Assembly (NCBI GenBank): GCA_028386065.3
Contig: JAKUCV010000342.1
Span: 199,074-263,073 of the forward strand
Origin: Turnera subulata
Taxonomy: Eukaryota; Streptophyta; Magnoliopsida; Malpighiales; Passifloraceae
DNA: 64,000 nucleotides
Reading direction: 5' to 3'
Both the position numbers and the translations under genes were made by a program. Below, in pieces: positions 1,763 to 50,705 of this stretch (the first letter of the stretch is position 1; each line of letters opens with the position of its first letter). Below the pieces are notes generated by a model. It saw only the letters and a program-made list of their open reading frames with translations. It searched no databases and was not told the DNA's origin.

Positions 1763-1792
1763 TTCTACCCCCCTTAAAAAGAATTTCGTCCC
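1763..1792 (-). other. Polypurine tract and 3' end motif of element A
   Basis: Read on the minus strand, the bases just before the LTR are AAGGGGGGTAGAA directly abutting TGTAACAG, preceded by GGGGACGAAATTC. A purine run touching the 3' LTR is the plus-strand DNA primer site of LTR retrotransposons, and this wording resembles that of plant Ty3/gypsy elements. Element B has the matching AAGGTGGGTAGCC at 11465-11477. Together with the PBS-like site at the far end of the interior, this sets the element orientation to minus. Confidence 0.75.
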
Positions 1793-1803
1793 CAAAATTC
1801 CGT

Positions 1804-1947
1804 CTTATCCGTGGGTCCTACCACGATAAGCTTCTGGCACACTCTGCCAGGTGTCCAAACTCAACATGAGATACCGCTTATACCCTTAAGCGACATCTCT
1901 TTCGCTTATAAATACCAAACCTCACAGCTGAGATATTCACTCTCAGC
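1804..1947 (+). promoter_or_regulatory. Dyad-rich promoter and leader of gene alpha, copy A
   Basis: Four inverted repeats follow each other. D1 is 1804-1830, with 10-bp arms CTTATC(C)GTGG/CCACGATAAG and one bulged C. D2 is 1834-1850, CTGGCA/TGCCAG. D3 is 1868-1899, an inner CGCTTA/TAAGCG pair inside an outer GAGAT/ATCTC pair. D4 is 1927-1947, GCTGAGA/TCTCAGC, ending one base before the ATG. A TATA box, TATAAATA, lies at 1907-1914, about 35 bp before the start codon, so the leader would be only about 10 nt. D1-D3 and the TATA box are base-identical in copy B (11506-11616). A role as protein-binding sites or as RNA stems in the antisense element transcript is inference. Confidence 0.65.
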
Positions 1948-1948
1948 C

Positions 1949-2326
1949 ATGGACTCTCCACTTCGTTCTCGAACGACCTCAGACTCCGAGAACAACAGCT
2001 ACATCGGTGGCACCGCTTTCCCGACAAACTCCGATGAAGAGCCTCCAAAGAAACGGTTCAAGACCAACATCATCGGCCTGGAGGAGCACATGGTGGTCTC
2101 CCCAAAGCGACGGAAGAAGCGTGCCGGCAAGAAAGCTGAGGACAAGAAAGGCAAAGCGGTAGCTGAAAGCAGCACACCGCAGCAGAAGTTGACGCAGCTG
2201 AACGTCTCCCTGAGGAAGATCAGCTCGGCGGTGGCACAAATTGAACTGGCGTGCGTGGAGCTCTTCCCTCACTTGAGGAACGTCCAGCAACTTGTAAAAG
2301 ACTTAGAGAAGCAAGTAACTCAGTAG
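1949..2326 (+). CDS. Gene alpha, copy A: small basic nuclear-type protein antisense to the retroelement
   Basis: 125 residues, starting at the ATG in a good context (CCATGG) just after the TATA box and the D4 dyad. The open frame extends upstream only through a GTG, so 1949 is preferred. I do not recognise the family. Visible parts are an acidic/Ser N-terminus (about 1-32), a basic PPKKRFK cluster (about 32-38), a second basic cluster SPKRRKKR (about 51-58) followed by a Lys-rich segment, and a C-terminal predicted helix (about 80-125) with regular Leu/Ile/Val spacing. The clusters resemble nuclear localisation signals. Copy B (11652-12029) aligns without indels. I count about 36 synonymous against 18 amino-acid-changing codons, which indicates purifying selection. 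AATAAA follows at about 2361. Confidence 0.7.
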   Translation: MDSPLRSRTTSDSENNSYIGGTAFPTNSDEEPPKKRFKTNIIGLEEHMVVSPKRRKKRAGKKAEDKKGKAVAESSTPQQKLTQLNVSLRKISSAVAQIELACVELFPHLRNVQQLVKDLEKQVTQ

Positions 2327-3107
2327 AGTACTTCTTCTTCGATGTAAACTGTTATGAATTAATAAAATAAGTTTCCTTTTGAAATCAAATCTCTTAGATT
2401 ATAAATTCTCTTATTAAGATATGAAAGTTCATATTTAACTGAGAAGAAACAAAATATTTAAAACATAACAAAACCGTCATGAATAAAATCGAACATAATG
2501 ATGTTACAAACAGGACCGATAAAACGAATTATAACAAACATAAAAAAATTAAAAACGAAACAAAACTCGTTTAACAAAATCAAAACAAAAAGAAATAAAA
2601 ACAAGATATGTTTCATGCTCGGCGCTCTAGTTCGATCGTGTCCGTTCTCAATCCTGAGAAACGTGACACATACAGTTAACGGTGACGTCGATTAACCTCG
2701 TGAAGAGGACATCCGTTAGCTGGCAAGACGATGATCATGGGATCGTCCTGTGTCCCTCGAAAGACACGTTACCCACTTGTTCACCATTTCTGCATGGGCC
2801 AAAAACGTCTGTCAAAGCTCGTATCTCTCCACGATGTCCGAACAGCTGTGAGCTTGTCGCACATGCGCTATACTCGAGATACGGCCCCATCCGTCTAGCC
2901 ACAACGGTCACGGATGCTTGTGATAAAAGATGCAAGAAATATATAGAAAGGCCATAAAACAAAAAACAAGGTAGCCAGAGCGAATTAAAATCATGTGTTG
3001 AAAATAGGATGAAAATCTCTGGCATGGGTCCGAAAAACGCTTAAAGCAATAAATGCAAGCAATGGTAAATTCAAAAACAAAATCTTGAAAATCAAAAACG
3101 GTAATCA
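2327..3107. other. Spacer between alpha and beta with a conserved upstream block
   Basis: An AT-rich 3' region (2330-2600) precedes a block at about 2680-2930 that is roughly 80 percent identical to 12369-12610 in element B. The block includes GTGACGTC at its left edge. It can be read as an open frame in both copies, but neither has an ATG, and differences often change amino acids or the frame end. I treat it as conserved non-coding sequence upstream of beta. Confidence 0.5.
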
Positions 3108-3138
3108 CGCTCCCCATAAGAGTATAAAAGATGGAGCG
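3108..3138 (+). promoter_or_regulatory. Promoter of gene beta, copy A: TATA box inside an inverted repeat
   Basis: TATAAAAG at 3123-3130 is flanked by CGCTCC (3108-3113) and GGAGCG (3133-3138), a perfect 6-bp inverted repeat with the TATA box in its loop. The arrangement is repeated at 12806-12836 in element B, where the bases just after TATAAAAG differ but both arms are kept. The ATG follows about 110 bp later. Confidence 0.6.
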
Positions 3139-3235
3139 GTGAAGTGTAATTCATCAAAAGCATCAAAGCAAACAAAACGCTGAGGCAAAAGAAACACAAC
3201 GATCGTAAAACAAAACCCCACACGTCCAAAACAAA

Positions 3236-3919
3236 ATGCCTGCTCCTTCATCCGTCTTCTTCGTCGAAGGTGCCAATCTTGGCAGAAGGAACCGACTGGC
3301 TTACAGCATGGTCAACGAACGCGCTGAAGAGCTACCGAACGAGCTCGACAGAATGCCACGTCTAGTTTTCGTCGACGAGCTCTACTCCTCAAGATTCTTC
3401 GTCACTCCCATGGAAGAGGTGTTCTTCCTAGAGGACCATGGGACACTGAGGACTTCCTACTACGGCTCAGCAAACTCCGTGATGTTGTTCATCTCGGATA
3501 GGCTTCAAGAGTTCAACTTGGAGTCCACTTGCCAGACTGTGGAGCAAGGTGCTTACTACCAGCTCTCAATGACAGCCCAGAGCATACCCAGAATGACTCG
3601 GCTACCTCCAACCTGGCCAAAGGTACGGCTACTGGTGTGGAACTGCAGAGGAGTTGCAAGGCGTGCACAGGAATTCTCACGCACCCTGAGGGACTTGAAG
3701 AACCAGTATAAGCCGAACATGGTTCTTCTGACAGAGACACAGTGGCAACCACGGGACGATCACGGTCTGATTCCACTCCGGTTCCCTCAAGCAAACCGGT
3801 TCGAGATTCCTGGCCAGCGCGACAGAGGCGGCATGTGGTTCTCGTGGAGCGACAAAGTCACGGTCAACGTCAACAACGATCCAAACAGCTTCCGTGTCAA
3901 CGTCGTTCCGAATCGTTAA
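3236..3919 (+). CDS. Gene beta, copy A: novel N-terminal region plus truncated LINE-type endonuclease fold
   Basis: 227 residues from an ATG 106 bp after a TATA box. Residues 1-125 match nothing I recognise. Residues from about 127 carry the opening strands of the plant LINE endonuclease/exonuclease/phosphatase domain: LLVWNCRG, then the pattern L..LK...KPNMVLLTETQ including the metal-binding Glu, then GGMWFSW near residue 200. The protein stops there, so the GDFN and SDH motifs that complete the active site are missing. Nuclease activity is therefore unlikely, and a binding or regulatory role is inference. Copy B differs at eight or nine residues. In the first 48 codons I count 13 synonymous changes and one replacement. 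Confidence 0.75.
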   Translation: MPAPSSVFFVEGANLGRRNRLAYSMVNERAEELPNELDRMPRLVFVDELYSSRFFVTPMEEVFFLEDHGTLRTSYYGSANSVMLFISDRLQEFNLESTCQTVEQGAYYQLSMTAQSIPRMTRLPPTWPKVRLLVWNCRGVARRAQEFSRTLRDLKNQYKPNMVLLTETQWQPRDDHGLIPLRFPQANRFEIPGQRDRGGMWFSWSDKVTVNVNNDPNSFRVNVVPNR

Positions 3920-4236
3920 ATGTATTTTTCTTTTTATATAATATCAAAAATCCATGTATTATTTCCCTTTTTATAAAATATCAATGTAATATCTCTGTTT
4001 GCAATCAATATATTAATATTTCCCTTTGTATCAAAATATTAGCAATATTAATAATATTTGTATTTTCGCATCTTTATGGCATCATTTACCTCATATGTGT
4101 ATGTTCCTCGACAGCTGGCATCCCTCGACTGGATCTATAATGCACTAACTAAATGATGTAAAATATTAAACTACTGGAGCGAACTATGCAAACAAGACAA
4201 CAACACACATAGACTGCCCGACAAGACCTAACGCCC
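3920..4236. other. 3' flank of beta inside element A
   Basis: AT-rich sequence follows the beta stop codon and is conserved in copy B (13622-13946), including the run CAATCAATATATTAATATTT. It ends next to the primer-binding-like site. No further gene is visible. Confidence 0.5.
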
Positions 4237-4248
4237 GCTCCGCTACCA
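4237..4248 (-). other. Primer-binding-like site of element A
   Basis: On the minus strand, TGGTAGCGGAGC lies three bases inside the LTR end. It begins TGG, as required to pair with a tRNA CCA end, and matches 10 of 12 bases of TGGTATCAGAGC, the usual initiator-Met PBS of plant LTR elements. The identical word occurs at 13947-13958 in element B. The two mismatches leave the tRNA identity open. Confidence 0.6.
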
Positions 4249-5003
4249 AAATGAGACGCCCCGACCCGTATTTACCGTACACAGTAAACAAGTGCCGGAA
4301 CTGTGACAACCCCAACCCAACAAAGCCCGACGGACTGCGTATAAAATAATAAACAGGCCAACGGCCCAATATCAAAAACTGTAAACCGGCCCTTCGGCCC
4401 AACATAGAACTCGTCACCCGAACCCTGGGGACATCAACAACAACCAACTGGCCCAATGGCCCAAATACAACATATACACAGCAGAAGATTTAACAATATG
4501 CACAGCGGAAGACTCTTAACTCACAAGACAACATATGCAGAGCCCAATGCAACTAATGGATCCGAGTCCTGCCCGAGGGTACGCTTCAGCTCGCCCTATA
4601 CGTTCCTGCACTACCAACAACTCATCCTACGGGATGAAACCCCGCAGGCGAGGGGTGAGTCCGAAGCGCTCACCGACGAAAGATAAACAGTGATATATAG
4701 TCAACCATAATACTTTCGAAATAAACACAACAATCACAACCACAAGCAAAAGCAATCACCTCACAAGGATACTACCATAACAACTAACACATACTACACG
4801 ACAGAGGGAACTAACTCAAACAACACATCGGAGGAAACCAACATGAAAAACATAACAGAGGAATCCTACTAAATCATATCAAAGCCAAGACCAAATGTAT
4901 ACTTATTAATTTTTATTACCAATTTTATATTCCGGGCCCCGTCACTGGACAAGCTAGGGTCGTACCTGGTTATTAACTAATTCTGGATGCCAGGCCCCAC
5001 CAC

Positions 5004-5110
5004 AATCCGGGATCAACATCCCCATATCTCAAATCCGGGATCAACATCCCAATATCACAAATCCGGGATCAACATCCCAATATCACAAATCCGGGGTCAA
5101 CACCCCAACC
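5004..5110. repeat. Tandem repeat in LTR A (about 27-bp unit, four copies)
   Basis: Four near-copies of AATCCGGGATCAACATCCC followed by an AATATCAC-type spacer. Each unit carries the dyad GGGAT...ATCCC (GGGGT...ACCCC in the last). The array lies about 800 bp from the inner LTR end, a position where the other LTRs in the window carry their own short-repeat arrays. There are no flanking cas genes and no unique spacers. Confidence 0.8.
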
Positions 5111-6689
5111 AACAAACCTTCTAGCCATGACACCACAGAACTAGCCTCTAACCATCTAGTCGTACCACTACTTTCCAAGTGACAAATACATCATCATCTC
5201 AAATTCCAGTTCAATCCATTACTCTTTCATCAATTTCCCAATTTTTATTATCTCTGATTAATTCCACAGACTCAATCTCTTATCTCAAACTCGTGACACA
5301 AATTATTCAAAATTAACAGCTCAGCATAAATTCCAACACGTCATACACAAGTCTATCACAAACCAACAACAGCATCAATAATTCCACAATAATCAGGAAA
5401 CAGTCAATAATTATTCCAGCAGACCAATCTAGCAACAAAATACACAAACAACAAAGAAACACACACAGCATTACGGGCACATATCAAGGTTTATCTATCC
5501 TCACCTGATGTATCTCTGAAACTGCTATCCGGTCAACCTCGATACCCTATATGTATATACATAGCAACACAATCACTTATAATGCACAACAAAATGATTA
5601 TGCATGATACCGGTTTTAGAAATTGTTACACGGCTTGTCTTATACCAAGTCTAATTCTTATTATTTCCATGTTTTTCTTTAATATGAAATTAGCCTCTTT
5701 AATCGATATACCAGTCATACTCGATCTTTAAGGTGGAAACCGAAACCGAGCTCCAAGCCAATATCCCGGCCTTCTAGCCCTTTGTCGATAAGGGAAAACA
5801 TAAACATATTAAAATACATGTATATATACGTATATTTATACATAAATCGATACTAGATTATACGTATATCTAGTGTGACCATATTTATATATATATAGTA
5901 GGTAATTCCCATTTTACCATATATATATTTATGTGATAAATAAAATTGTAACTTCTTTAAGTGTTTATAATTCATAGATAATCATATATATGTTTTTAGT
6001 TTACATTTGACAACTAAATCAAGTTAATAAGTATTTTTGGGCCTTTAATTATTAACAGTCCAAGTATGAATTAAATAAACCGGATTACTATAGGTCTTTC
6101 TAATAGTCCAACAAAGAATAAAATTATAAATCGAATTACAAAACATAAATGGAATTAAGAGTTAATATTTGATTAATTAAATTAAATCTTTATTTTAATT
6201 AAAACAATTAAGAGTCCGGGTTCATTAACGTTCTTAGTCCGTTAGAATGTATTCGTCCCGAGAACATGGGCTTTGCACAATCGGCCCGTTTCCGAGCCTA
6301 ACTTGTAATCCGCCCAAACCCGAGCTCAACAATGCATACGGTCCAAGGAATTACCCAAAGATCGGTTTCCGGGCTCGCCGGAAAATTCCTGAGGCTTTGC
6401 CGAAAAATTTCCGGGACTGCCGGAAATTCGTCGGAATCCGGCCAAAGGTACTGTTCACAGTAGCCCCAAAACACCATGGTCGTCATCTCAGCTCATCTAG
6501 CATCAACGCACCCAAACCACCCAGTTAAACCACTGCCTAATCCACCCGCCAACTCCATACCCACAGCAGCACACGGCCATCCATCCACCGTCACAAACCC
6601 ACAACCACAACACCAACAGCAACGCCATCACAACCAAAGACACAAAACCCAAAATCAATTTTTCGAAAACCCAAACATCACAGAGGAGA

Positions 6690-7495
6690 AGGAGACGAAT
6701 TTGGCAGCAGTGACTTACCCCGACGGCGGCGCGGAGAAAGGAAGAGGAAGAGGATCGGTGGCGGCTTCCACGGCAGCGGTGTTGGGAGATCAAGGAAGGA
6801 GGGGATCGACGGCGAGAAAGGAGAAAGAGGAGGCAGGAGGAGGTGATGGTGGCGGTCGAGTTGCAGGCAGTGGCGTCGGTGGCAGCAGGTGACGGCGTCG
6901 TCGGGTCTTGCTCGCGGATGGAGACGCGGCGGTCTGGCATCGGCGTCGCGCGTCGTCCGGCGGGGAGGGGAAGAAGAGGAGAGAAGAGGTGGTGGCTTCG
7001 ATGGTGGTAGAGGGCTCGGCGTGGTGGTCGGTGGAGGAGAAAAGAAAAGAAGAAGGAATAAGAAAGAAGAAGGGAGAGAGAGAGAGTGGCGCGGTGGCGA
7101 TGAGGTGGTGATGATGGTCTCGGATGGTGGTGGCGTAGGGAAGGAGAGAAGGAGGAAGAGAAAGAAGAGGGGTTGCAGGAGAGGTGTGGGGGATCGGGTG
7201 GAGGGGAAGGAAAAAAAAAATAAAGGAAAGGAGGAAAAGAAAGTGACAAAAGGAAAAAGCAAAGAAAGGATGAAAAGAAGGAGGAGGGGCCGGCAGTTCA
7301 CGGGGTGGAGGCGGCTGGAAGAAAATGGAGAAGAAAAGAAAAGAAAGGAGAAAAGAAAGAAAGAGAAGGAAAAAAAAAGAAAAGAGAGAAGAGAAGTGGG
7401 GCCCACGCAGCCGGGGAAAAACCGGGAGAGAGGAAGAAATGTAACCGAGAAAGAGGAAGAGAAAGGAAAGAGAAGAAGGAAGAGTGGCTCGGGGC
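6690..7495. repeat. Homopurine-biased tract, second LTR A copy
   Basis: Counterpart of the tract at 620-1430, with several small indels in the mononucleotide and GA-rich runs. No gene is supported here. Confidence 0.75.
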
Positions 7496-7828
7496 AAGCC
7501 TCATGTGGCCGGTCCGAATTCTAGCGTCGGAATCTCGTAGACGCAGGGATACTCCCGTCTTTCCCACAAATTCCGTCCCGAGTCCAAAAATACAACTTGG
7601 GCTCGAAAAATCCGATTAATTCCCCTGAACGTCGTCCAAGTCTCAAAACTGGAAACCGAGGCTCGGTTAGTTAGGAAGATACTCCCGAGCGCGGGAAAAC
7701 TCTCGGTTTCGAAAAACAACTCCCGTTTTACCGTGAATTAATTACCCAAGGTTAATTCGTCCGGTAATTCACTGTATAATGACTTTAACAGTCCCGGTAA
7801 AAATTCTAATTTTACCCGGGCTGTTACA

Positions 7829-8803
7829 ATAAGAATTAATTAATAATAAACAAAAAATAAAAAACATTAAATAAGTCATTTTTAAAATTGAAATCATAAA
7901 AATAAATATAAAAATATATTATTATGAATAAAAAATTTAATACAAAAAATAAAATATAAATGAGAAAAATAGATAAAAATATTTAATAATAATTAATTTT
8001 ATAATTTAAACATGCGTAATTGAGTCCTAAAATAAAAAATAACAGAAAAAAATTAAAAAATATATAAAACATAAAAGAGACCACAAAAAAATATTATATA
8101 AAATAATAATATAAAGAACAATTAATTTATGAAATGAAAAATTAACAAATTAAAAGACATGAAAATTAAAACATACCTTTGCATCATTTAAACTCATATC
8201 TATGCTAATAAGGAGGTTCTATAATTTTGCATTCAAGGATTCCTACAATCTCGAAACTCTAACTTAATTTTTCTATAAATCATTGTCAGGAGTCAATTCA
8301 TCCAAAGCTTTAATATACCTTTTCCTGCACAAACAAAAAATATAAAAATAATTAAAATAGAATGGGAAAATAAAAAAATATAAAAATAAATAGGATGCTT
8401 AATTATGAGAGACAAAATAACCTTAATATTATATCAACATTCATACGTATGCAAATAGAAACAAAAAAAAAAAATTAGAGAGAATGAGTGAATTATAGAG
8501 AAACTGTATCACACACAGACAGAGACTATATCTAGACCTTGTGTAGTGCAAAAAAAAAATAAAGAAGAAGTAAAAGGAAATGAATGAATGATAGAGAAAC
8601 TGTATCACATATAGAGACTATTATTTCAGATACACAAACAAAGACTGTATCTGTATTTATAGAGAGATGATGGAATTTTTGAAGAGATGCACGATAAAAA
8701 AATAAAAATGATTAATGGTTAGTTGAATATAATATAATTCTTATCAGATAACAATAATAGAGTAAATTACATAATATATATATAACAATCTTTGCGTGTG
8801 AAT
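7829..8803. other. AT-rich spacer between elements A and B
   Basis: Very AT-rich, with many A-runs and a few short repeats, for example two versions of AGAGAAACTGTATCACA near 8498 and 8595. No coding region, RNA gene or recognisable transposon end was found. Confidence 0.6.
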
Positions 8804-9275
8804 TTTCTTTTGACCAATTTGGGTGTGACTGAAATTCTTTTTAAAAGAATATAATTAAGATCAGATTCATCAATTTAAATAAAAATAGTTTTATCCTTAT
8901 CTTTATTGATTAGAAACTCTACCAATTTGGGTGTGTCTGGAATTCTTTTTAAAAGAGTATAATTAAGATAGCTTATTTGTACCAATCTTGTGAAACGCCC
9001 CGACCCGAATTTACCGTACACAGTAAACCCGAGCCGGAACTGTGACAACCCAACAAAATAAACCCCAAGCATACAGTGTGTATAACAAAAACTCGGGCTC
9101 GACAGCCCATCATAATAAACCACAATACGGCCCTACGGCCCAACATCAATAGTAATAAAACCGGCCCAATGGCCCAATAATAGAAAAACTATGCACAGCG
9201 GAAGACTTTAGACTCACATGACACTGTATGCGACACATGCAATCTATGGATCCAAGCCTGTCCAAGGGATAACGC

Positions 9276-10163
9276 NNNNNNNNNNNNNNNNNNNNNNNNN
9301 NNNNNNNNNNNNNNNNNNNNNNNNNNNNNNNNNNNNNNNNNNNNNNNNNNNNNNNNNNNNNNNNNNNNNNNNNNNNNNNNNNNNNNNNNNNNNNNNNNNN
9401 NNNNNNNNNNNNNNNNNNNNNNNNNNNNNNNNNNNNNNNNNNNNNNNNNNNNNNNNNNNNNNNNNNNNNNNNNNNNNNNNNNNNNNNNNNNNNNNNNNNN
9501 NNNNNNNNNNNNNNNNNNNNNNNNNNNNNNNNNNNNNNNNNNNNNNNNNNNNNNNNNNNNNNNNNNNNNNNNNNNNNNNNNNNNNNNNNNNNNNNNNNNN
9601 NNNNNNNNNNNNNNNNNNNNNNNNNNNNNNNNNNNNNNNNNNNNNNNNNNNNNNNNNNNNNNNNNNNNNNNNNNNNNNNNNNNNNNNNNNNNNNNNNNNN
9701 NNNNNNNNNNNNNNNNNNNNNNNNNNNNNNNNNNNNNNNNNNNNNNNNNNNNNNNNNNNNNNNNNNNNNNNNNNNNNNNNNNNNNNNNNNNNNNNNNNNN
9801 NNNNNNNNNNNNNNNNNNNNNNNNNNNNNNNNNNNNNNNNNNNNNNNNNNNNNNNNNNNNNNNNNNNNNNNNNNNNNNNNNNNNNNNNNNNNNNNNNNNN
9901 NNNNNNNNNNNNNNNNNNNNNNNNNNNNNNNNNNNNNNNNNNNNNNNNNNNNNNNNNNNNNNNNNNNNNNNNNNNNNNNNNNNNNNNNNNNNNNNNNNNN
10001 NNNNNNNNNNNNNNNNNNNNNNNNNNNNNNNNNNNNNNNNNNNNNNNNNNNNNNNNNNNNNNNNNNNNNNNNNNNNNNNNNNNNNNNNNNNNNNNNNNNN
10101 NNNNNNNNNNNNNNNNNNNNNNNNNNNNNNNNNNNNNNNNNNNNNNNNNNNNNNNNNNNNNNN
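9276..10163. other. Assembly gap (888 N)
   Basis: A run of unknown bases within the 3' LTR of element B. Open frames that cross it are meaningless. Confidence 1.
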
Positions 10164-10849
10164 ATTTTCCAGAGAAAATAATACACATACTAAATTTCCA
10201 GAAATTAATTTTAGGGAATATATATAATTTCCAGCATATATATATCAAAACATAATAATAATGTTCAAACAAAATATAATTATATAAATTTTCCAAGAAT
10301 TAAAATAAATATTTTTCTCCCAGAATACCTTGATTAAAACTGTCCATAATTTTCCAAAACAAATATATTTTTTTTTCTCAGATTAATTACCAGTAATCAT
10401 ATATATATATAGAACAATAAAATAAAAAAAAATAAATAAAAAAAATAAACAAAACAGCCCCAACCCGCAACCAAGGCGCGACCCGGCCGTTGGTAACGGG
10501 TCGGAAACCCGGCCTCACCTCGGGTTAGGCGATGGCGGCGCGACGGCAGACGCGAGGGAGGCTAGGCAAGGTGCGGCGAGAGGCGGCGAATCGAGGGGCG
10601 GTGCTAGCGAGGCGCGAGGCGGCGCGACGGCCGAGCAGGAGAGCAGGGACCGAGATCCGCGGGTCCTCCTCCGGGTCGTTGGCGCGTCAGGGCGGCACCG
10701 GCGACGGATCGACTCGGGGCCGGCGGGGGTGAGGTCGCGACGGTACCGCAAACACGGAGGTGGCGGCGGTGGCACGAGATTCGTCGGGGATCGGGCTCGA
10801 GTGAACAGTGTGGGGCGGGCGGCGAAGGTGACAGAACTGTTCCTCCATT

Positions 10850-11130
10850 TTTCCTTTTTTTTTCTTATTTTCTGTAATTTCTTATTTTTCTTTCTTTTTC
10901 TTTGATTTTCTTTTCTTTTCTATTTTCTGTTTTTTTCATTTCTTTTTTTCTATTTTTTTCCCTTCTTCCTCTCACTGTTTTCCTATTTTTCTTTTTTTTC
11001 TTTTTTTTTCTTTTTTTTCCTCTCTTTTTTTTCTCTCTTTTTCTTTTCTCTCTTTTTCTTTTTCTCTCTTTTTTTCTCTCCTTTCTATTTTTTTCTTCTT
11101 CTCTTCCTCTCCTTCTTCCACCGGTTGATG
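10850..11130. repeat. Polypyrimidine tract in LTR B
   Basis: The plus strand is almost only T and C for about 280 bases, so in element sense (minus) the tract is polypurine. It is repeated at 16040-16318. Its strand is opposite to that of the equivalent tract in LTR A. Confidence 0.8.
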
Positions 11131-11464
11131 CCTCTTTATAACTGAAAATTCACTATTATACATGTGAATTTCAATAATGCAGTTCGTCTGCATTACGGGC
11201 GAATCCGATCCGGACCAGAAAATAACAGATACCTCCTTAGTTATTTTCCGGTGTGATTTTTCGAGAAATTCCGAAACCCGAAAAATACCAACTTAGTTCC
11301 GAAAAATCCACGGGAAAATCACGAGCGCGGGAAAACACTCGGTTTCGAAAAACGACTCCCGATTTACCTTGAATTAATTACCCAAGATTAATTCAACAGT
11401 AAATCACGGTAAATAGGCTTTTACAGTCCGGTAAAAATCCAAAATTTTTACCCGGGCTGTTACA

Positions 11465-11477
11465 GGCTACCCACCTT
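11465..11477 (-). other. Polypurine tract of element B
   Basis: On the minus strand, AAGGTGGGTAGCC touches the TGTAACAG start of the 3' LTR, with GGGGACGAAATTC just upstream. It corresponds to the tract at 1763 in element A with a few substitutions. Confidence 0.65.
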
Positions 11478-11505
11478 AAAAAGAATTTCGTCCCCGAAAT
11501 TCCAT

Positions 11506-11650
11506 CTTATCCGTGGGTCCTACCACGATAAGCTTCTGGCACACTCTGCCAGGTATCCAACCTCAACATGAGATACCGCTTATACCCTTAAGCGACATCT
11601 CATCCGCTTATAAATACCAAACCATCACAGCTGAGACACTCACTCTCAAC
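11506..11650 (+). promoter_or_regulatory. Dyad-rich promoter and leader of gene alpha, copy B
   Basis: D1 (11506-11532), D2, D3 (11570-11601) and the TATA box TATAAATA (11609-11616) are identical to copy A. The fourth dyad just before the ATG is kept except for one base in its right arm (TCTCAAC instead of TCTCAGC). The surrounding bases vary, so the dyads are better conserved than their surroundings. Confidence 0.65.
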
Positions 11651-11651
11651 C

Positions 11652-12029
11652 ATGGATTCTCCACTGAGATCAAGGACAACTTCTGACTCCGAGAACGACA
11701 GCTACATCGGCGGCAGAGCTTTCCCAACAAGCTCCGATGACGAACCTCCGAAGAAACGCTTCAAGACCAACATCATCGGTCTGCAAGAGCACATGGTCGT
11801 TTCCCCAAAACGACGGAAGAAGCGGGTCCCTAAGAAAACTGAAGACAGGAAAGGAAAGGCAGTTGCAGAGAGCAGCACTCCGCAACAAAAGCTGACGCAA
11901 CTGAACTTCTCCCTGAAGAAGATCAGCTCGGCGGTGGCGCAGATAGAACTGGCGTGCATGGAGCTCTTCCCGCACATGGAAAATGTCAAAAATCTTGTAA
12001 AAGACCTAGAGAAGCAAGTAGCTCCGTAG
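11652..12029 (+). CDS. Gene alpha, copy B
   Basis: 125 residues, the same length as copy A and with no indels. It keeps both basic clusters (PPKKRFK and SPKRRKKR) and the C-terminal helix with Leu/Ile/Val spacing. The replacements fall mostly in the linker after the second basic cluster and in the last 25 residues. The start ATG has the CCATGG context in both copies. AATAAA follows at about 12060. I assign no function. A DNA- or RNA-associated nuclear protein is the simplest reading of the basic clusters. Confidence 0.7.
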   Translation: MDSPLRSRTTSDSENDSYIGGRAFPTSSDDEPPKKRFKTNIIGLQEHMVVSPKRRKKRVPKKTEDRKGKAVAESSTPQQKLTQLNFSLKKISSAVAQIELACMELFPHMENVKNLVKDLEKQVAP

Positions 12030-12805
12030 AGTACTCTTCTCCTGTTGTAAAACCTTTATAAATAAAATAAATTTCCTTTTAAATCAAAAATTTCTTATGT
12101 TAAGAAATCTTATTCTAAACAGAATAAAATATCTCAAAGCAAAATAAAAATCAACTAAAAGAATATAAAATCCAATATAAAGAAATTAAAATCAAAACTC
12201 GTTTAACAAAATCAAAACATAAAGAAATTAAAACAAAAACGTTTAACCAAATTCAAAACAAAAAGGAAGTTAAAACAAAAAGGAAATTAAAACAAAATAT
12301 GTTTTCGTGAACGATGCTCTTACGGACGTGAACATCCTCGAATCACGAAACGTAACTCGTACAACTAACGGTGACGTCTGTTAACCTCGTGAAAAAGATA
12401 CCCAACAACAGGCAAGGCGATGATCACGAGCACGTCCTGTGTCTCTCGAAAGACACGTTACCCGCTTGTTCAAAAATTCCGCATGAGCCAAAAACATCTG
12501 TCGAGGCGCGTATCTCTCCAAGATATCCGAACAGCTGTAAACTCGTCGCACATGTACTCTACTCGAGGTGCGGTCCCATATGTCCAACCTCAACGGTCAC
12601 GGATGCAAGTGCTAAAAAAAGCAAGAAAATATAGATAGACCATGGGAAGAAAGGACAAAGTAGCCAGAGCAAAAGAAAATCAAGAAGTGGAAAAAGGCTG
12701 AAAAACTCTGGCATGGGTCCGAAAAACGCGTAAAGTAACAAAGCATTAATTGAAAGCAACGGTAAATTCAAAAGGCAAGATCTTGAAAATCAAAAACGGT
12801 AATCA
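12030..12805. other. Spacer between alpha and beta in element B
   Basis: A-rich sequence with imperfect repeats of AAAACAAAAAGGAA (about 12180-12300), then the conserved block 12369-12610 matching 2680-2930, then a 60-bp stretch nearly identical to 3060-3120 that leads into the beta promoter. Confidence 0.5.
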
Positions 12806-12836
12806 CGCTCCCCATAAGAGTATAAAAGAAGGAGCG
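12806..12836 (+). promoter_or_regulatory. Promoter of gene beta, copy B
   Basis: TATAAAAG at 12821-12828 again lies between CGCTCC and GGAGCG. The bases upstream of the TATA box are unchanged from copy A. Confidence 0.6.
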
Positions 12837-12937
12837 GTGAGGTGTAAATCACCAAAAGCATCAAAAGCAAACAAAACTCTCAGAAAACAAAACCACAACG
12901 TTCAATCAAAACCCCACACGTCCAAAAGAAAAACAAG

Positions 12938-13621
12938 ATGCCTGCTCCATCTTCAGTGTTCTTTGTTGAAGGTGCCAATCTTGGCAGAAGGAATCGTCTG
13001 GCCTACAGCATGGTCAACGAACGTGCTGAGGAGCTACCGAATGAACTCGGCAGAATGCCACGTCTAGTTTTCGTCGACGAGCTCTACTCCTCAAGATTCT
13101 TCGTCACTCCCATGGAAGAGGTGTTCTTCCTAGAGGACCATGGGACACTGAGGACTTCCTACTACGGCTCAGCAAACTCCGTGATGTTCTTCATCTCGGA
13201 TAGGCTTCAAGAGTTCAACCTGGAGTCCACTTGCCAGACTGTGGAGCAAGGCGCTTACTACCAGCTCGCAATGACAGCCCAGAGCATACCCAGAATGACT
13301 CGGCTACCTCCAACCTGGCCAAAGGTACGTCTGCTGGTGTGGAACTGCAGAGGAGTTGCAAGGCGTGCACAGGAGTTCTCACGCACTCTGAGGGACTTGA
13401 AGAACCAGTACAAGCCCAACATGGTTCTTCTGACGGAGACGCAGTGGCAACCACGGGACGATCACGGTCTGATTCCACTCCGATTCCCTCAAGCTAACCG
13501 GTTCGAGATTCCTGGCCAGCGCGACAGAGGCGGCATGTGGCTCTCTTGGAGCGACAGAGTCACGGTCAACGTCAACAGTGACGCAAACAGCTTCCGTGTC
13601 AACGTCGTTGCAAACCGTTGA
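12938..13621 (+). CDS. Gene beta, copy B
   Basis: 227 residues, colinear with copy A. It keeps the WNCRG strand, the TETQ metal-site motif and the GGMW strand of a LINE-type endonuclease fold, and it stops at the same position before GDFN and SDH. The unique N-terminal 125 residues are equally conserved and include an aromatic/acidic segment VFVDELYSSRFFVTPMEEV. Nearly all differences in the first 48 codons are synonymous. From about codon 40 to 110 the two copies are almost identical at DNA level, which suggests recent gene conversion between family members. Confidence 0.75.
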   Translation: MPAPSSVFFVEGANLGRRNRLAYSMVNERAEELPNELGRMPRLVFVDELYSSRFFVTPMEEVFFLEDHGTLRTSYYGSANSVMFFISDRLQEFNLESTCQTVEQGAYYQLAMTAQSIPRMTRLPPTWPKVRLLVWNCRGVARRAQEFSRTLRDLKNQYKPNMVLLTETQWQPRDDHGLIPLRFPQANRFEIPGQRDRGGMWLSWSDRVTVNVNSDANSFRVNVVANR

Positions 13622-13946
13622 ATGTATTTCTATTTTTATAAATTATCAAAAATCTATGTTTTTTTTTTCCTTTTTGTAAAATATCAAGTATCAATGTAAT
13701 TTCTCTGTTTGCAATCAATATATTAATATTTCCCTTTCTATCAAAATATTAGCAATATTAATAATACTTGTATTTTCGCTTATTTATGGCATCATTACCT
13801 CTTATGTGTATGTTCCGCGACAGCTGGCGTCCCTTGACTGGATCCATAATGCACTAACTAAATGATATAAAATAATAAACAACTGGAGCGAACTATGCAA
13901 ACAAGACAACAAACACACAAAGACTGCCCAACAAGACCTAACGCCC

Positions 13947-13958
13947 GCTCCGCTACCA
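13947..13958 (-). other. Primer-binding-like site of element B
   Basis: TGGTAGCGGAGC on the minus strand, three bases from the LTR end, identical to the site in element A. Confidence 0.6.
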
Positions 13959-13961
13959 AAA

Positions 13962-16662
13962 TGAAACGCCCCGACCCGTATTTACCGTACACAGTAAACA
14001 CAAGCCGGAACTGTGACAACCCGACCCAACAAAGCCCAAGCATACAGTGTGAACTACAATAACTCGGCCCAACGGCCCAAAATAGTAAAACAACATAAAT
14101 AATAAATCCCGGCCCAATGGCCCAATAATAGTAAAAACATGCACAGCGGAAGACTTATGAAACTCACATAAACACTGTATGCATAGATGCAAACTATGGA
14201 TCCGAGCCCTGTCCAAGGGAAAACGCTGCAGCCTGTCTGGAATGCACCAAACCTGTACATGAAACAACTCATCCTACGGGATGAAAGCCCGCAGGTGAGG
14301 GGTGAGTCCGAAGTGCTCACGACAATGGAAAGACCATCAATATGGACACTAAAGTTACTCAAGGCCAAAAACAATCAAAAACCGACCAAAAGACTCAACA
14401 AAATCCAATTATCCAATTTTATCTTTCCGGGCCCCGTCACGGATAAGCTAGGGTCGTACCAGGTTATCAACCTGTTCCTGGTGCCAGATCAAAAAGAACC
14501 CAGGGATAGACATCCCAAAAATAACAAACCGGGATAGACATCCCAAGCATAGACATGCTTATCAAGTAACCCAGATCATGGCCACCACAAACAGTCTCTA
14601 ACCATCCGGTCGTACCTCTACTTACCACGTGACAATTATATCATCATTAAAAACCAAACTCAGGGATCGACATCCCTAACCAAAATACCGAGGATCGACA
14701 TCCTCATCACAATTCATTAAGTAATCCTTTATACTTAATCCAAAAGAAAACACAGAAAATCAACACGGGATAAACATCCCAAAAATACCAAATAAGCACC
14801 GGGATAAACATCCCGAAACCAACCACATAATACTCAACAATGCAACAAGCAACAAAACACAATTAACCGAGTAATAAGGCACATATTGAAGGAAATCCAT
14901 CCTCACCTTGGCCGATTACTCAACTTCGGAAACTATGACCGGTCCGACGCCGGCTCCTCGGGAAACTGCCCGATATCCAAACCTATACCACAAAACCATA
15001 TATACACCTAAATGCACATATTCGGTATGCTATGATGCCCAAAATGCGTAATAATCACATCCCGATTATATACCCTTTATTATTTCCATTTACCGAAAAT
15101 ATTTATCCATACGTATATCCGAATATAATTTCGGTACTATATTTTAATTAAAACAATTTTTCAAAATATATTTTCATAAAATAAGTATAATTCCCAAAAT
15201 AATAATCATCATATTTTTTTTCCAGAAAAATAATAAGCTATTTATAATTTTCAGAAAATATTTATAGTATTTATCTTTTTCTAAATACATATACAATTTA
15301 ATTTTCCAACACAAAATATAATTAACTTAAATTCCCAAAATACATATTTATATACATATACCATAATCATAATTTTCCAGAGAAAATAATACACATACTA
15401 AATTTCCAGAAATTAATTTTAGGGAATATATATAATTTCCAGCATATATATATCAAAACATAATAATAATGTTCAAACAAAATATAATTATATAAATTTT
15501 CCAAGAATTAAAATAAATATTTTTCTCCCAGAATACCTTGATTAAAACTGTCCATAATTTTCCAAAACAAATATATTTTTTTTCTCAGATTAATTACCAG
15601 TAATCATATATATATATAGAAAAATAAAATAAAAAAAATAAAAAAAAAATAAACAAAACAGCCCCAACCCGCAACCAAGGCGCGACCCGGCCGTTGGTAA
15701 CGGGTCGGAAACCCGGCCTCACCTCGGGTTAGGCGATGGCGGCGCGAGGGAGGCTAGGCAAGGTGCGGCGAGAGGCGGCGAATCGAGGGGCGGTGCTAGC
15801 TCGGCGCGAGGCGGCGCGACGGCCGAGCAGGAGAGCAGGGACCGAGATCCGCGGGTCCTCCTCCGGGTCGTTGGCGCGTCAGGGCGGCACCGGCGACGGA
15901 TCGACTCGGGGCCGGCGGGGGTGAGGTCGCGACGGTACCGCGAACACGGAGGTGGCGGCGGTGGCACGAGATTCGTCGGGGATCGGGCTCGAGTGAACAG
16001 TGTGGGGCGGGCGGCGAAGGTGACAGAACTATTCCTCCATTTTTCCTTTTTTTTTCTTATTTTCTATAATTTCTTATTTTTCTTTCTTTTTCTTTGATTT
16101 TCTTTTCTTTTCTATTTTCTGTTTTTTTTCATTTCTTTTTTTCTATTTTTTTCCCTTCTTCCTCTTACTGTTTTCCTATTTTTCTTTTTTTTCTTCTTTT
16201 TTTTTCTTTTCTTTTTCCTCTCTTTTTTTTCTCTCTTTTTCTTTTCTCTCTTTTTCTTTTTCTCTCTTTTTTTCTCTCCTTTCTATTTTTTTCTTCTTCT
16301 CTTCCTCTCCTTCTTCCACCGGTTGATGCCTCTTTATAACTGAAAATTCACTATTATACATGTGAATTTCAATAATGCAGTTCGTCTGCATTACGGGCGA
16401 ATCCGATCCGGACCAGAAAATAACAGATACCTCCTTAGTTATTTTCCGGTGTGATTTTCTGAGAAATTCCGAAACCCGAAAAATACCAACTTAGTTCCGA
16501 AAAATCCACGGGAAAATCACGAGCGCGGGAAAACACTCGGTTTCGAAAAACGACTCCCGATTTACCTTGAATTAATTACCCAAGATTAATTCAACAGTAA
16601 ATCACGGTAAATAGGCTTTTACAGTCCGGTAAAAATCCAAAATTTTTACCCGGGCTGTTACA
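13962..16662 (-). mobile_element. Element B, 5' LTR (complete, 2,701 bp)
   Basis: Runs from TGAAACGCCCCGACCC to CCCGGGCTGTTACA and starts TGTAACAG in element sense. It shares its two ends and the CCCCGTCAC and CTAGGGTCGTACC modules with LTR A, but its middle is different: a GC-rich block (15660-16010), a pyrimidine tract (16040-16318) and AT-rich sequence. A set of GGGAT..ACATCCC palindromes lies at 14500-14820. Confidence 0.85.
14500..14820. repeat. Dispersed palindromic 15-bp motif in LTR B
   Basis: At least six variants of GGGATAGACATCCC and GGGATAAACATCCC are scattered over 320 bp, including compensated forms such as GAGGATCGACATCCTC and AGGGATCGACATCCCT. In the compensated forms both arms change together, so the pairing is kept. 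Confidence 0.7.
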
Positions 16663-17331
16663 GTTGCGTGTGAATTTTTATTTGAACAATTTGAGTGTGA
16701 TTGGAATTCTTTTTAAAAAGTATAATAGATCAGGTTATTATGGGATAATTATGTTTGTCATTATGACCAATCAAACTACACCTAAAATCCTCCAGATGGC
16801 AGTAAAGGAAGAGCTCAAAGCCTCCACATGGCAATAAAGCAAGACTCTAAAAATCCTATATGTCAAAACCTGGTGAGGGATACAGCTTTAAATATATATA
16901 ATAGATTTCTTTTGACCAATTTGGGTGTGACTGAAATTCTTTTTAAAAGAATATAATTAAGATCAGATTCATCAATTTAAATAAAAATAGTTTTATCCTT
17001 ATCTTTATTGATTAGAAACTCTACCAATTTGGGTGTGTCTGGAATTCTTTTTAAAAGAGTATAATTAAGATAGCTTATTTGTACCAATCTTGCGTGTGAA
17101 TTTTTATTTGAACAATTTGAGTGTGATTGGAATTCTTTTTAAAAAGTATAATAGATCAGATTATTATGGGATAATTATGTTTGTCATTATGACCAATCAA
17201 ACTACACCTAAAATCCTCCAGATGGCAGTAAAGGAAGAGCTCAAAGCCTCCACATGGCAATAAAGCAAGACTCTAAAAATCCTATATGTCAAAACCTGGT
17301 GAGGGATATAGCTTTAAATATATATAATAGA

Positions 17332-18245
17332 TATGAAAATTTAGAAATTCAAAGGTATATTGTCATTAAAATTAATTTTTAAGGGATTTATATAAAGCTT
17401 GTAAAGAGTGAAGGGCGGCCATGATCACCCGTGGCCTCTCCCTCCCTTCGCCACTGTTTAAGGGTTAAATTCTTTAAAATAAGAGCCGTCTGATAGGAGT
17501 ATCATCATCCCTACTAATGTAAGCCTCGCGGATCCATGAAACAGCTGATGCTTTTATCAAAATTTTCTAAACCTTCAAGCTGTTTTTTTGTCAATAATAT
17601 TCAACCCACCGCAGAGACGAGAGTGCTTTTGATGTATCAGTTTGATACTTGTGTTCTGTATTTTTTCATGTTATAAGTTGCGATAAGACTTGTGCTCTGT
17701 ATTTTAATTTCTTATATGTTTGCAAAGGGACTTAATGGTGAGACTTCGTCGAGATATTGATGCAAAACATACCGAAATATAGTGGGTAACTAATATTGCG
17801 TACATTTTTTTTATATCCAAATATAGTACAATTAGTACACCATTAGATTTGTAACTAATACACTGAATCCGATAAGCTCGTTTATACAAATTGCATGTTA
17901 TGAAAAATAGAACAATACTACAATAATATAAGATTGTTGTAAAGAAAACTTGGCACAAGATAAATAGTCTTATCACTATTAAATAATCTCATCCATAAAC
18001 AAATGTGTCGATATAAAATTTTTAGTACAAAATTGGGTTGGTTGGTTTAGCATTTTTCAAAAAAGAATATTCAGTTGTCCATCTGGGTAAGCATGATTAA
18101 GCACATTTATGAAGTATATTGCAATCGCTATCATGCAGGTAGAGGTTGTTAGTCTTATAAATGTCGAAATCACATTGGTCGTTGACCACAAGCAAATCGG
18201 TTTCAATTTCGTGCAATAGTAAATAGACTGGATAAAAAAAAAAAA
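17332..18245. other. AT-rich spacer before LINE A
   Basis: No gene or RNA is recognised. A short GC-rich island at 17403-17460 lacks a supported reading frame. Confidence 0.5.
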
Positions 18246-21200
18246 GTCAATAGGGGTAAAAATCTTGCATGGCAAGATGTGAAAAAGCAGTGCACAAGAC
18301 GCGGCGTTCAAGCCTTGCAAAGGCTTAGAGATGCTTGGCGCCCAGGTCTGGTCTATCTCATGGAAACAAAGCAGGATCAGACCTATTTGGAGGTTTTACG
18401 TAGAAATTTTGGTTATTTTGGTTCTTTGTATGTCAACCCTATCGGCCTTTCTGGAGGACTAGCCGTCTGGTGGATGTCAGACTTTCAAGTTGAGCTCTTG
18501 TCTAAATCTAAGTACTTCCTTGATGTATGGGTCACAGAAACTGCCTCTGGTCATGAATGGCAAACCACTTTTGTGTATGGGGAGCCTGATAGGGGCAAGC
18601 GAAAGGAAGTCTGGGAGAAGTTGTCTAAGCTAAAGCTTTCTGATGAAGAAGCTTGGCTTTGCGTTGGAGATTTCAACGCCCTCTTGGATGATGCAGGAAA
18701 GGATGGTGGCCAGCCAGCTAATCGACGCTTGTGCTCTGATTTTTTTGAATTCCTTGAAGCTTGTAACTTAATGGATCTAGGCTATCAAGGGGAAGCTTTC
18801 ACGTGGCAGAAGAGTAGAGTAGCACGTGATAATATTAAGGAAAGCCTGGATCGTGCTGTTGCAACCCCCACATGGAGGCTTCTGTTTGAACATAGTCAGG
18901 TCTATCATGATGCCCTCCTCTCCTCTGATCATCGCCCGATTATTGTCAAGCTACGGGATATTTCTTCCAAGAGGAGGGGATCCTTCAAATTTGAAAGTCA
19001 TTGGTTTGAAGAAAGTCAATGCTCTGAGGTTATTAGCAGTGCGTGGAATTGTCAACCCACTGGCTCTCTAATGTATCGGTGGAATGAGAAGCTTAAGATC
19101 TCTCAAGTTGCTTTATCTAAGTGGAAACGCTCCTCTTTGGGAAACAATAAAAAGGAGATCGAGAGTATCATTTTGAGGCTTGAAGAGATACAAAGGCTGC
19201 CGGTAACGGATTCTTTAATTGAGGAAGATAGGGTTTTATCGGCTAAGCTGGATATCGCTTGGAAAAAGGAAGAACGCTTCTGGCACCAACGTCCGAGAAT
19301 TAAATGGCTCAAATATGGTGATAGAAATACGAAGTTTTTCCATTTATCAACGGTGCAAAGGAGACAGCTCAACCAAATTCTATCTATTTGTGATCGTTAT
19401 GGCAATAGGCTCTATAATGAAGATCATATTGTAAATGCCTTCACTGATCACTTCCAAGATGTGTACTGTGCATCTCCAAGCTCATGCACCCAAACTGTTC
19501 TAGACGCTATCCAGCCTATTGTCAGTAATGAGATGAATGCTTCCTTGCTGAGAATCCCTGATGCCATTGAGATTAAGAGAGCCGTATATGACCTTGGTGG
19601 ACTCAAGGCTCCAGGGCCTGATGGCTTCTCAGGAGCCTTTTATCAGCAGCATTGGGAAATTATGGGCTGCGACATCATTCAAGCAGTTAAGAGCTTTTTT
19701 TTCGGAGGATTTATGTTGAAAAAGTTCAATGAAACCAATATCACTCTGATTCCAAAGCTCCAAAAATCCTCCTCTGTGAACGACTTCCGCCCCATAAGTC
19801 TTTGCAACTTCTCCTATAAGGTTATCTCTAAAGTTATGGCTAACAGGTTACGTCCCCACATGGATCAGCTAATTTCTTGTGAGCAAGCAGTCTTCATTCC
19901 TGGTAGAATGATCCAGGATAATATTCTCATTTTCCATGAAGCGCTACATCGCTTAAGGCTGTCTCGAACCAAAACTAAATTGCATATGACAGTGAAGCTA
20001 GATGTCAACAAAGCGTTTGATAAAGTTAGTTGGGCATTCCTTGAAACTTTGCTCAACAAAATGGGATTCGCTCCAAAATGGATCCATTAGGTCTTCCAAT
20101 GTATTACAACTGTACGTTACAAGGTGGTTGTCAATGGGATTCAATCGGAGACGGTTACCCCGAAGAAAGGTCTCAGGCAGGGTGATCCACTCTCACCCTA
20201 CCTGTTCCTCTTTGTGGCTGATGTGTTTTCCAAAATGCTTAGTAATGCCAAAACTGCAGGGTTATTGAATGGCTATCAACTCAAACCAACATGCCCTACC
20301 CTAACCCACATCATCTTTGCAGATGACACATTACTCTTTGGCAAGGCTAGTGTTCAAGAGGCAGTGGTCTTTCAGCAGCTCATTCGTGACTATAGTTTGG
20401 CCTCTGGGCAGACCATTAACCTCACTAAGTCTCGTATCACGTTTGGGAGCAATGTCTCTGCTGCTCTTCGACGAGATATCTGCTCCACCATGGGTATTCA
20501 GGAATCGTCTAGCAAAGAAAAATACCTTGGGCTGCCCGCTATATGGGGGAGATCAAAATCCGAGGCCTTTGCTTTTCTTATGAAGAAGATTGATGGGAAA
20601 GTTCACTCTTGGAAACAGAGATTTTTGAACCAAGCGGGTAGAGAAGTCCTCATTAAGGCAGTTATATCTTCTATACCGGGGTACACTATGTCTTGTTTCA
20701 AGCTACCCTCTGGATTTATTGAAGAAGTGCATAAGAAGAAAAGGCATTTCTGGTGGAACAATAAGAAGGAAGGGGGTGTTGTCCATTGGGTATGTTGGGA
20801 AAAGCTCACTAACCCGAAGAGTGTTGGAGGGCTCGGCTTCAGAGATTTAAACCTTTTTAATCGTGCCTTGCTAGCCAAACAATGCTAGTAAGGATCCGAA
20901 TCAGCTCTGGGCTAGAGTTCTCAAGGGTCTTTACTTCCCTAACACCTCCATCCTGGAAGCTAAACTTGGAGGCAGCCCATCTTGGGCATGGCGTAGCATG
21001 ATTGAGGGCAGAGATGTCTTGATGGAAGGCCTGAGGTGGAACGTAATGGGAGGTACACGTATCAGAGTTTGGGACGACCCATGGGTGCCCCTCTTGGATC
21101 GTTTCAAAATTAACTCACCAAGACCACAAAATTGTCCTCAGCTGAAAGTTTGTGATCTTGTTACTAGCGGGCAGTCTTGGAATATGCATACCTTGTCATC

Positions 21201-22418
21201 CCTTTTTTCTGAAAATGAAAAGCAAGCCATCCTTTCCATTCCTCTCGGCAACACATCCACACCTGACCAACTTATCTGGCACTATACCAAATCGGGTATT
21301 TTTAATGTCAAATCTTGCTATACCCGGCTATGTCAACTACGCCAGCAACAAGAAGACAATCGTCATGCGCTTGATGACTTCAATTGGAAGCACTTATGGA
21401 AGCTCAAAGTTGGGCCCCGAGTCCATAACTTCCTTTGGAGATCCTTTACCTACAGTCTCCCCACTATGGCCGGACTTCATCGGCGAAATATCAGCTCAAG
21501 TGCAGATTGCCCATTATGTGGCTCCCAAGCTGAAACAGTTAAGCATGTCCTCTTTCTTTGTGACCATGCAAGAGCTTGTTGGATGGCTAGTCCAATCGGA
21601 TACAGACCCTTTCCCTCAAATATTCCTGACATTAAGTCTTGGTGGAAGGAAATGCAATCCTTCTGTGAGCAGCACCAAGATGGTCTTTTTGAACACATTG
21701 CCTACTTGCTTTGGGAGATTTGGAAGTCAAGAAATGCAACAGTCTTGGGCAGTGGACACATCAGCCCGATAAACACTGCAATGAAGGCGTACAGGTTGTC
21801 ACAGGAACTGTCTTTGCAGCGACAACCATAGCCAAATCCCTCTCCTATCTCCCCCTTGCAACACTGGTCTTTACCCCCTGCTGGATGGTATAAGATCAAC
21901 TCTGATGCATCTCTCATTGATGCAAAATCTCCCATTGGTTTAGGCATTGTAATCCGCAATGATTCTGGTATGCTCATTGACCTCCAACAGGGTATTTGTA
22001 GGGGTATGTCTGCTCTTGTTGGAGAAGCCTGGGGACTTTTATATGGGTTCAACTTGCACTCAGTTGGGTCTACAAAGGGTCATTCTGGAAACTGACACTG
22101 TGAACTTAATAGCTGCTTTGAAGCGTTGCAAGGATGCACAGGTTGACTGGGGTATTGCTTCTCTCGTGGAGCAAACTCATCTTTTGTTAGGAAGTTTTGT
22201 TAGTTACAACATTTCGGCAGTGAATAGACAGGCTAATAGAGCAGCTGATCTTTTAGCACGAAATGCTAGACATCACTTGAGCATGGGTGTTGGTTTCTAT
22301 CTAGTGCCGAGTGACTTTTCACATGTAATTAACACGGATTTGCAGTAATGAATGACGTTACTAGACGTTCAAAAAAAAAACACCAATGATTGTACTCTTC
22401 TCATCAAAAAAAAAAACC
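18246..22418 (+). pseudogene. LINE A: L1-type non-LTR retrotransposon, ORF2 remnant
   Basis: A decayed ORF2 runs in the order endonuclease, reverse transcriptase, zf-RVT, RNase H. Endonuclease motifs are METK, CVGDFN and SSDHRP (18360-18950). The reverse transcriptase has GPDGFSGAF, IPKL, LDVNKAFD, GLRQGDPLSPYLF and FADD (19610-20340). The zf-RVT region is at 21380-21620 and the RNase H has NSDAS, EAWG, ETD and RAAD (21895-22260). Breaks are TAG at 20088, a stop plus frameshift at 20886-20889, TAG at 21829 and a frameshift near 22050. ORF1 and the WNCRG start of the endonuclease are missing, so the copy is 5'-truncated. The 3' end has A-runs at 22371 and 22408. No clear target duplication was found. 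Confidence 0.9.

Positions 22419-50674: not shown

Positions 50675-50705
<31 letters not shown>

Follow-up and report, generated by a model that had tools for sequence, protein, structure and literature searches.

An antisense gene pair apparently in place of pol in LTR retrotransposons of Turnera subulata, with one near-frozen protein

Introduction

What sustains two intact genes on the antisense strand of long terminal repeat (LTR) retrotransposons in which no gag-pol frame is seen? The question is raised by the leftmost region of a 64,000-nucleotide stretch of Turnera subulata DNA (assembly GCA_028386065.3, contig JAKUCV010000342.1, positions 199,074 to 263,073), hereafter the window, whose positions serve as coordinates below and in which two elements, A and B, each carry a gene pair that we call alpha and beta. 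A sequence-only reading of this region had proposed that the pair forms an antisense cassette kept under purifying selection in a non-autonomous element. Comparing A with B and searching the assembly (518.7 Mb, 7125 contigs) for their relatives, we arrive at an antisense gene pair that appears to replace pol and that includes one near-frozen protein, which is stronger than, and different from, what had been proposed.

Results

Two genes selected as codons on the opposite strand

Elements A and B are genuine LTR elements, both minus-oriented according to their polypurine tract (PPT), primer binding site (PBS) and TG..CA ends. The PPT (AAGGGGGGTAG adjoining TGTAACAGCCC) and the PBS (TGGTAGCGGAGC) are read on the minus strand, alpha and beta lie on the strand opposite to them, and neither gene shows an indel or a stop in the A versus B alignment, all as the earlier reading had it. 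The common interior without gag-pol also stood, in that open reading frame (ORF) lists inspected by eye, without a profile scan, revealed no gag-pol frame in A or B. Outside the genes, identity between A and B in 100-column blocks runs from 50% (2461-2560) up to 94%, and it is 100% in the final 18 columns, near the PPT and PBS.

Codon comparison of A with B reproduced the earlier count for alpha (36 synonymous and 18 replacement changes) and gave 28 synonymous and 8 replacement changes over all 227 codons of beta. These correspond to a ratio of nonsynonymous to synonymous divergence (dN/dS) of 0.10 for alpha (dN 0.082, dS 0.79) and 0.07 for beta (dN 0.015, dS 0.22), with departures from neutrality at Fisher p values of 1.5e-16 and 6.9e-14, respectively. 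Only the true frame is stop-free among the six frames tried; the -2 frame, with which it has third positions in common, gives a low ratio too, yet it has stop-bearing codons (3 in alpha, 9 in beta). In 500 Markov sequences of the interior a 227-aa ORF never arose, and 59 held an ORF of at least 125 aa, so that the length of alpha alone is weak evidence. Chance ORFs were rejected on the Fisher tests, the six-frame comparison of stops and the Markov sequences. Both genes are under purifying selection between elements, which agrees with the original proposal, and for beta the ratio is also low between subfamilies (below). Because dS differs greatly between alpha and beta in this one element pair, and because beta is near-identical over 3349-3627 (just 4 A/B differences in the alignment, silent sites counted), exchange between elements is indicated.

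The LTR pairs diverge by a Kimura two-parameter distance (K2P) of 0.0225 over 1762 sites in A and of 0.011 over 1286 sites on the U3 side of B, so that A and B are young, each inserted less than 1 million years ago at the substitution rate in common use for plants (1.3e-8). The LTRs had been called decayed, which fits only the 261-site U5 end of B (8991-9275 versus 13962-14226; K2P 0.14), and this U5/U3 contrast is a sign of recombination or conversion, or of an assembly effect beside the N run. Element B is inserted in a tandem repeat, and its flanks (8804-8990 and 16664-17332) recur joined at ~17085-17095, where an empty site is therefore visible.

The position of the cassette relative to gag and pol

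In the related loci L010 (E 1.5e-7) and L030 (E 1.1e-7), gag (PF03732) lies on the strand opposite to beta, and in the L030 contig the PBS of A and B stands directly ahead of gag. A genome search with gag gave 3370 candidates, 140 of which were scored and 12 loci taken, one of them being L010's own place. Beta lies opposite gag in all 12, 250-300 bp beyond the gag stop, a gap that leaves no room for pol between the two; it is complete and intact in 10 and interrupted by N in 2, and the whole 437-aa gag frame is present in 10 of the 12 (C-terminal part only in the others). We also considered the case that the sequence-only reading had itself set against its proposal, namely a plus-oriented interior with alpha and beta as divergent gag or env genes, and rejected it because gag sits on the other strand in these relatives. 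The antisense placement was thus confirmed, with the same PBS before gag where it was read.

Among the gag matches listed, 24 have 66-68% identity, and by eye 17 of these belong to frames that stay open for 500-966 aa, as gag-pol would. C6161, one of the 24, was read in two stretches and served as the gag-pol relative. It has the identical 12-base PBS ahead of gag, domain matches to aspartyl protease, reverse transcriptase (RT), RNase H, the integrase zinc domain and SH3_Tf2-1 (RVP_2 and RVT_1 among the profiles), an integrase core match below its cut-off, and a PPT ~40 bp beyond the last pol frame that resembles the PPT of type II elements (defined below). This copy is not intact, because its frames are split into three pieces. 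No match to alpha, beta or the ORF gamma (below) was found below E 0.1 within its 6,994 bases. Since this relative, with its identical PBS and similar PPT, has pol but lacks the cassette, the cassette appears to occupy the place of pol, as judged from one gag-pol relative; others may carry the cassette.

Gag-less type II copies, such as L021, look like deletion derivatives, because by eye the apparent first gag codons seem to be retained beside the leader. Among the gag-bearing loci L010, L063 and L065-L074, the sequence TTCGAGGACGAA occurs beyond the gag stop within one mismatch in 4 of the 11 scanned, with variants in others by eye, and a similar sequence precedes the type II PPT, so that the cassette is bordered by similar short sequences.

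Copies across the genome and the strength of constraint

Copy lists for beta and alpha were ranked by similarity, which biases them towards intact copies. For beta, 8182 first-look candidates were found and 140 of the best 150, all scored, lack an internal stop; for alpha, 139 of the best 150 from 3883 candidates are stop-free (both counted by eye), so that for either gene the genome has 150 scored copies or more. A second sample of 30 loci was picked by 215 bases of leader DNA, independently of beta. Beta was detected in 29 of these, being intact in 13 (A included) and broken or partial in 16, with no match in the remaining one. With only 13 of 30 intact, decay is common, and it is mainly because A and B are young that their frames are whole. 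The statement that copies decayed in their LTRs still keep both frames accordingly fell, given the young A and B and this leader-selected sample. Selection is visible between lineages.

Beta is strongly constrained between subfamilies. It also changes less than gag does at loci that carry both, and less than alpha does when the same types are compared. For type I or III against type II representatives (12 pairs, mostly from the similarity-ranked list), beta has a dS of 0.67-1.05 and a dN of 0.008-0.027. Leader-selected intact copies against gag-selected copies (130 pairs, unranked by beta) gave dN 0.027, dS 0.81 and a ratio of 0.033; leader-selected copies with stops gave 0.040 (100 pairs, stop codons skipped), with seven broken or partially aligned copies excluded from these counts. 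Ratios within sets are 0.065-0.092. At the nine gag loci compared, gag has a ratio of 0.23 and beta one of 0.10, and alpha between types I and II has dN 0.075 and dS 0.99 (first 58 codons, one pair). Where dS is below 0.02, the beta ratio reaches 0.41 (4 pairs only), as expected if inserted copies drift while the replicating lineage stays constrained.

Settings and partners of beta

Among 30 beta-selected loci, 15 hold alpha or alpha', a 132-aa protein 64-68% identical to alpha (L007, counted among them although its contig ends within the gene pair's region, has a match of 55%). Type I (A/B-like) and type II (with alpha' and different LTRs) are LTR elements, and the exact 12-base PBS was found in 14 of the 30 loci. 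Another 13 carry gamma, a helical 95-aa ORF (91 aa at one locus) with a basic tail, which replaces alpha on the other strand, often at the position of alpha (for example L003:417-704); the gamma loci of this set showed no PBS. The remaining two loci are cut by the contig start (L008) or contain 647 N (L025). Gamma forms a small family (193 first-look candidates, 146 matches among 150 scored), and most full-length copies are stop-free by eye.

Six gamma copies (L014-L019) are 99.1-99.8% identical pairwise, and their homology stops within a few bases at the terminal inverted repeat (TIR) CTCCCTCCG beside TA. This repeat was found at the right end of all six copies (one with a base change) and at the left end of both copies read that far. 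Beta and gamma also stand together within a TA-flanked TIR family in L076 and L077, as they do in L014-L019; we take this family to be a Tc1/mariner- or Stowaway-like DNA transposon. This gamma-group DNA transposon has picked up beta together with the beta promoter. When the L002 group is compared with L014, dS is 0.05-0.10 for gamma but 0.42-0.46 for beta; because the latter is far higher, gamma elements probably gained or exchanged beta on more than one occasion. Selection on beta inside the gamma-beta transposon was considered and dropped, given these same dS values.

Promoters and protein properties

A TATA box lies 41-43 bp ahead of the gene in all 14 alpha or alpha' loci examined (types I and II) and 104-118 bp ahead of beta in 27 of the 28 loci where the scan applied, an anatomy from which each gene is predicted to be expressed from its own conserved promoter.

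Alpha has a pI of 9.7-9.8 and was modelled with a low-confidence N-terminal part and a single helix at 77-124 (mean predicted local distance difference test score, pLDDT, 66; blocks from residue 81 at 75-94), which would fit a nuclear coiled-coil protein. The last 101 residues of beta align to positions 2-86 of the 225-position EEP profile PF03372, the domain found in plant long interspersed nuclear elements (LINEs), with E 0.0014-0.0017, and the single NCBIfam match of beta at E<=1 is again an EEP family (E 0.018). This part carries WNCRG and TET motifs, which we presume to be those of the EEP endonuclease; the other catalytic residues presumably lie in the remainder of the domain, which beta lacks. 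The C-terminal part of beta thus looks like half of a LINE-type endonuclease that would be too short to cut.

Word-based searches of 5.8 billion proteins, many plants included, found no relative of beta at E<=0.001 and none of alpha at E<=1, a method that misses distant relatives and unannotated elements. Searches of PDB sequences with beta and of NCBIfam with alpha, a viral contig search and a tRNA scan gave nothing useful, and the best match of beta to the LINE frame of the window had an E of only 0.07. Membership in Transposase_28 (PF04195) was rejected, with no match in a Pfam scan of alpha and beta from A and B at E<=1.

Coordinates and other features of the window

Table 1. Features of elements A and B, in window positions; LTR ends are named in element orientation.
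Feature	Position	Strand	Evidence or remark
Element A 3' LTR	..1-1762, truncated by window edge	-	LTR comparison
Element A interior	1763-4251	PPT/PBS on -, genes on +	
Element A PPT (read on -) and alpha promoter, TATA ~42 bp ahead of start codon	1763..1948	+	A vs B 94% identity
Element A alpha, 125 aa, basic, C-terminal helix 77-124	1949..2326	+	
Element A beta promoter and 5' leader, TATAAAAG near 3123	3073..3235	+	TATAAAA[GT] similarly placed in 27/28 beta loci
Element A beta, 227 aa; residues ~134-212 like N-terminal part of EEP endonuclease fold	3236..3919	+	
Element A 5' leader and PBS, PBS adjoining LTR	4086..4251	-	
Element A 5' LTR	4252..7828	-	LTR pair K2P 0.0225
Element B 3' LTR, contains 888 N at 9276-10163	8991..11465	-	
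Element B interior	11466-13961	PPT/PBS on -, genes on +	
Element B alpha	11652..12029	+	
Element B beta	12938..13621	+	
Element B PBS	13944-13955	-	
Element B 5' LTR	13962..16663	-	

Further along the window, a stretch related to the LTR of A lies reversed at 49079-50847, and another LTR of the A/B kind begins in opposite orientation at 63179-64000 and continues past the window end. LINE relics with RT, EEP, zf-RVT and RNase H-like matches occupy 18186-22348 and 43113-44222. Two adjacent transporter-like genes lie on the minus strand (39578-41672 and 44911-47117); the second matches plant polyol transporters, its frame at 44911-46050 sharing 80% identity with proteins of Ricinus, Populus and Dovyalis.

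Discussion

We favour, at a probability of roughly 40%, the explanation that alpha and beta are a pol-replacing antisense pair of trans-acting nuclear accessory factors that aid their family under host silencing. In this reading A and B are gag-less and pol-less members of a Ty3/gypsy-type family with two opposite-strand genes in pol's place. They would be copied in trans by the proteins of gag-pol relatives that have their PBS and whose PPT and LTR end are related to theirs; some pol-less members still have a gag of their own. Alpha, a moderately fast-evolving protein that is small and basic, would probably be nuclear and pair via one long helix, and beta would be a near-invariant protein whose C-terminal part probably derives from the first half of a LINE-type endonuclease. 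Together in the nucleus they may keep the family expressed, or permit integration, despite host silencing, with alpha as an element-specific adaptor and beta as the part that would engage a conserved host machine. This function is predicted from the properties of the two genes. Whatever their function proves to be, it cannot be a by-product of pol, because this abundant family has no other gene in some members and only gag besides them in others.

Several observations weigh against this explanation. In 17 of the 30 leader-selected copies beta is damaged, incomplete or not found, and the gag-pol relative, the only one of the 24 gag matches at 66-68% identity to be read through to pol and PPT, manages without the cassette, which is thus dispensable for some kin. 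The EEP score of beta (18.6-18.9 bits) is below the curated Pfam cut-off of 24.5, and an AlphaFold model of beta from two sequences failed (pLDDT 29). In addition, the VANC proteins of transposable elements (TEs), our working analogue, are described as sequence-specific and engaged in an arms race, whereas beta is near-frozen.

A doubtful but possible alternative is that alpha and beta are replication cofactors, which would act in packaging, nuclear import or integration by entering or escorting the particle or its cDNA, as a complement to the gag and pol provided in trans, with no role in silencing. Their occurrence in pol-less elements, some with gag, would suit this, as would nucleic-acid binding by a basic alpha, and PMC7264820 proposes a similar role for antisense ORF proteins; however, the TATA boxes point to opposite-strand promoters of their own, so that the proteins would not be made with gag, and the gag-pol relative does without them. 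Much less probable is a decoy, in which the endonuclease half of beta competes with LINE proteins and so reduces a rival. The EEP-like half domain and the LINE relics in the same window speak for it, but a decoy would be expected to evolve alongside its target, and the interaction itself is a prediction. We hold it about as improbable, if not slightly more so, that elements have repeatedly captured beta, whole or as a fragment, from a host protein, its low ratio coming from selection in the host: a constrained host gene would yield an identical ratio, and beta is also present in DNA-transposon copies, yet the protein search, with its many plants, found no beta relative at E<=0.001, and alpha, beta and their promoters keep one arrangement across types I and II. 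Least likely of all is regulation by the antisense transcripts themselves (dsRNA or small RNA), with incidental proteins. The predicted beta transcript does span leader and PBS, and dsRNA roles for antisense transcripts are proposed in PMC7264820, but the codon-level selection on both genes contradicts proteins that are incidental; an additional RNA role beside the proteins is possible.

Among known systems, LARD and TRIM elements are described as being without coding capacity and mobilised in trans. A and B are like them in having LTRs, PBS and PPT without gag-pol, and unlike them in carrying two conserved genes under codon-level selection. VANDALs are DNA transposons, and their VANC proteins are sequence-specific, which sets them apart from the elements here; no sequence relation is claimed. 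They are alike in being TE-encoded accessory proteins with no replication enzyme, and VANC of Arabidopsis VANDALs provides a precedent for TE-encoded anti-silencing proteins that act in trans (PMC5735166, PMC10398659).

Antisense ORFs of plant LTR retrotransposons located between pol and the 3' LTR (aORF-3R), whose function is given as not established in PMC7264820, include maize Grande gene23, rice RIRE2 and Silene Retand ORF4 (PMC7264820, PMC11963269). Retand elements, some of them non-autonomous, have antisense ORFs with Transposase_28 in 97% of clusters (PMC11963269), and the Grande antisense ORF has its own promoter and a protein reported as nuclear (PMC7264820). The cases share ORFs antisense to gag, close to the 3' LTR, in Ty3/gypsy-type plant elements, some of which, in Retand, are likewise non-autonomous. 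Unlike them, the elements read here are missing pol and have the pair between gag (or its remnant) and the PPT; there are two genes, one encoding a chimeric EEP-like protein, without Transposase_28, and the gag-pol relative read has neither gene between pol and PPT. An affiliation with Tat or Grande is not supported, given the lack of a Transposase_28 match, the SH3_Tf2-1 integrase tail of that relative and the cassette's apparent place. Our searches of the open-licence literature showed no description of an antisense cassette in place of pol.

More tentatively than the accessory role itself, we suggest that beta may form a portable two-part accessory module with alpha, alpha' or gamma as its small, basic and helical partner. 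Such a module would have replaced pol in LTR elements and passed between subfamilies whose LTRs differ, and a TIR DNA transposon would have acquired it with a different partner, the near-housekeeping constraint on beta then coming from engagement of a conserved host machine on behalf of any carrier. Its slow change, relative both to gag at shared loci and to alpha across the types compared, makes beta a good handle for finding a host target. The question why a non-autonomous element should keep a trans-acting protein makes this family a test case of how transposons cooperate with, or cheat on, one another.

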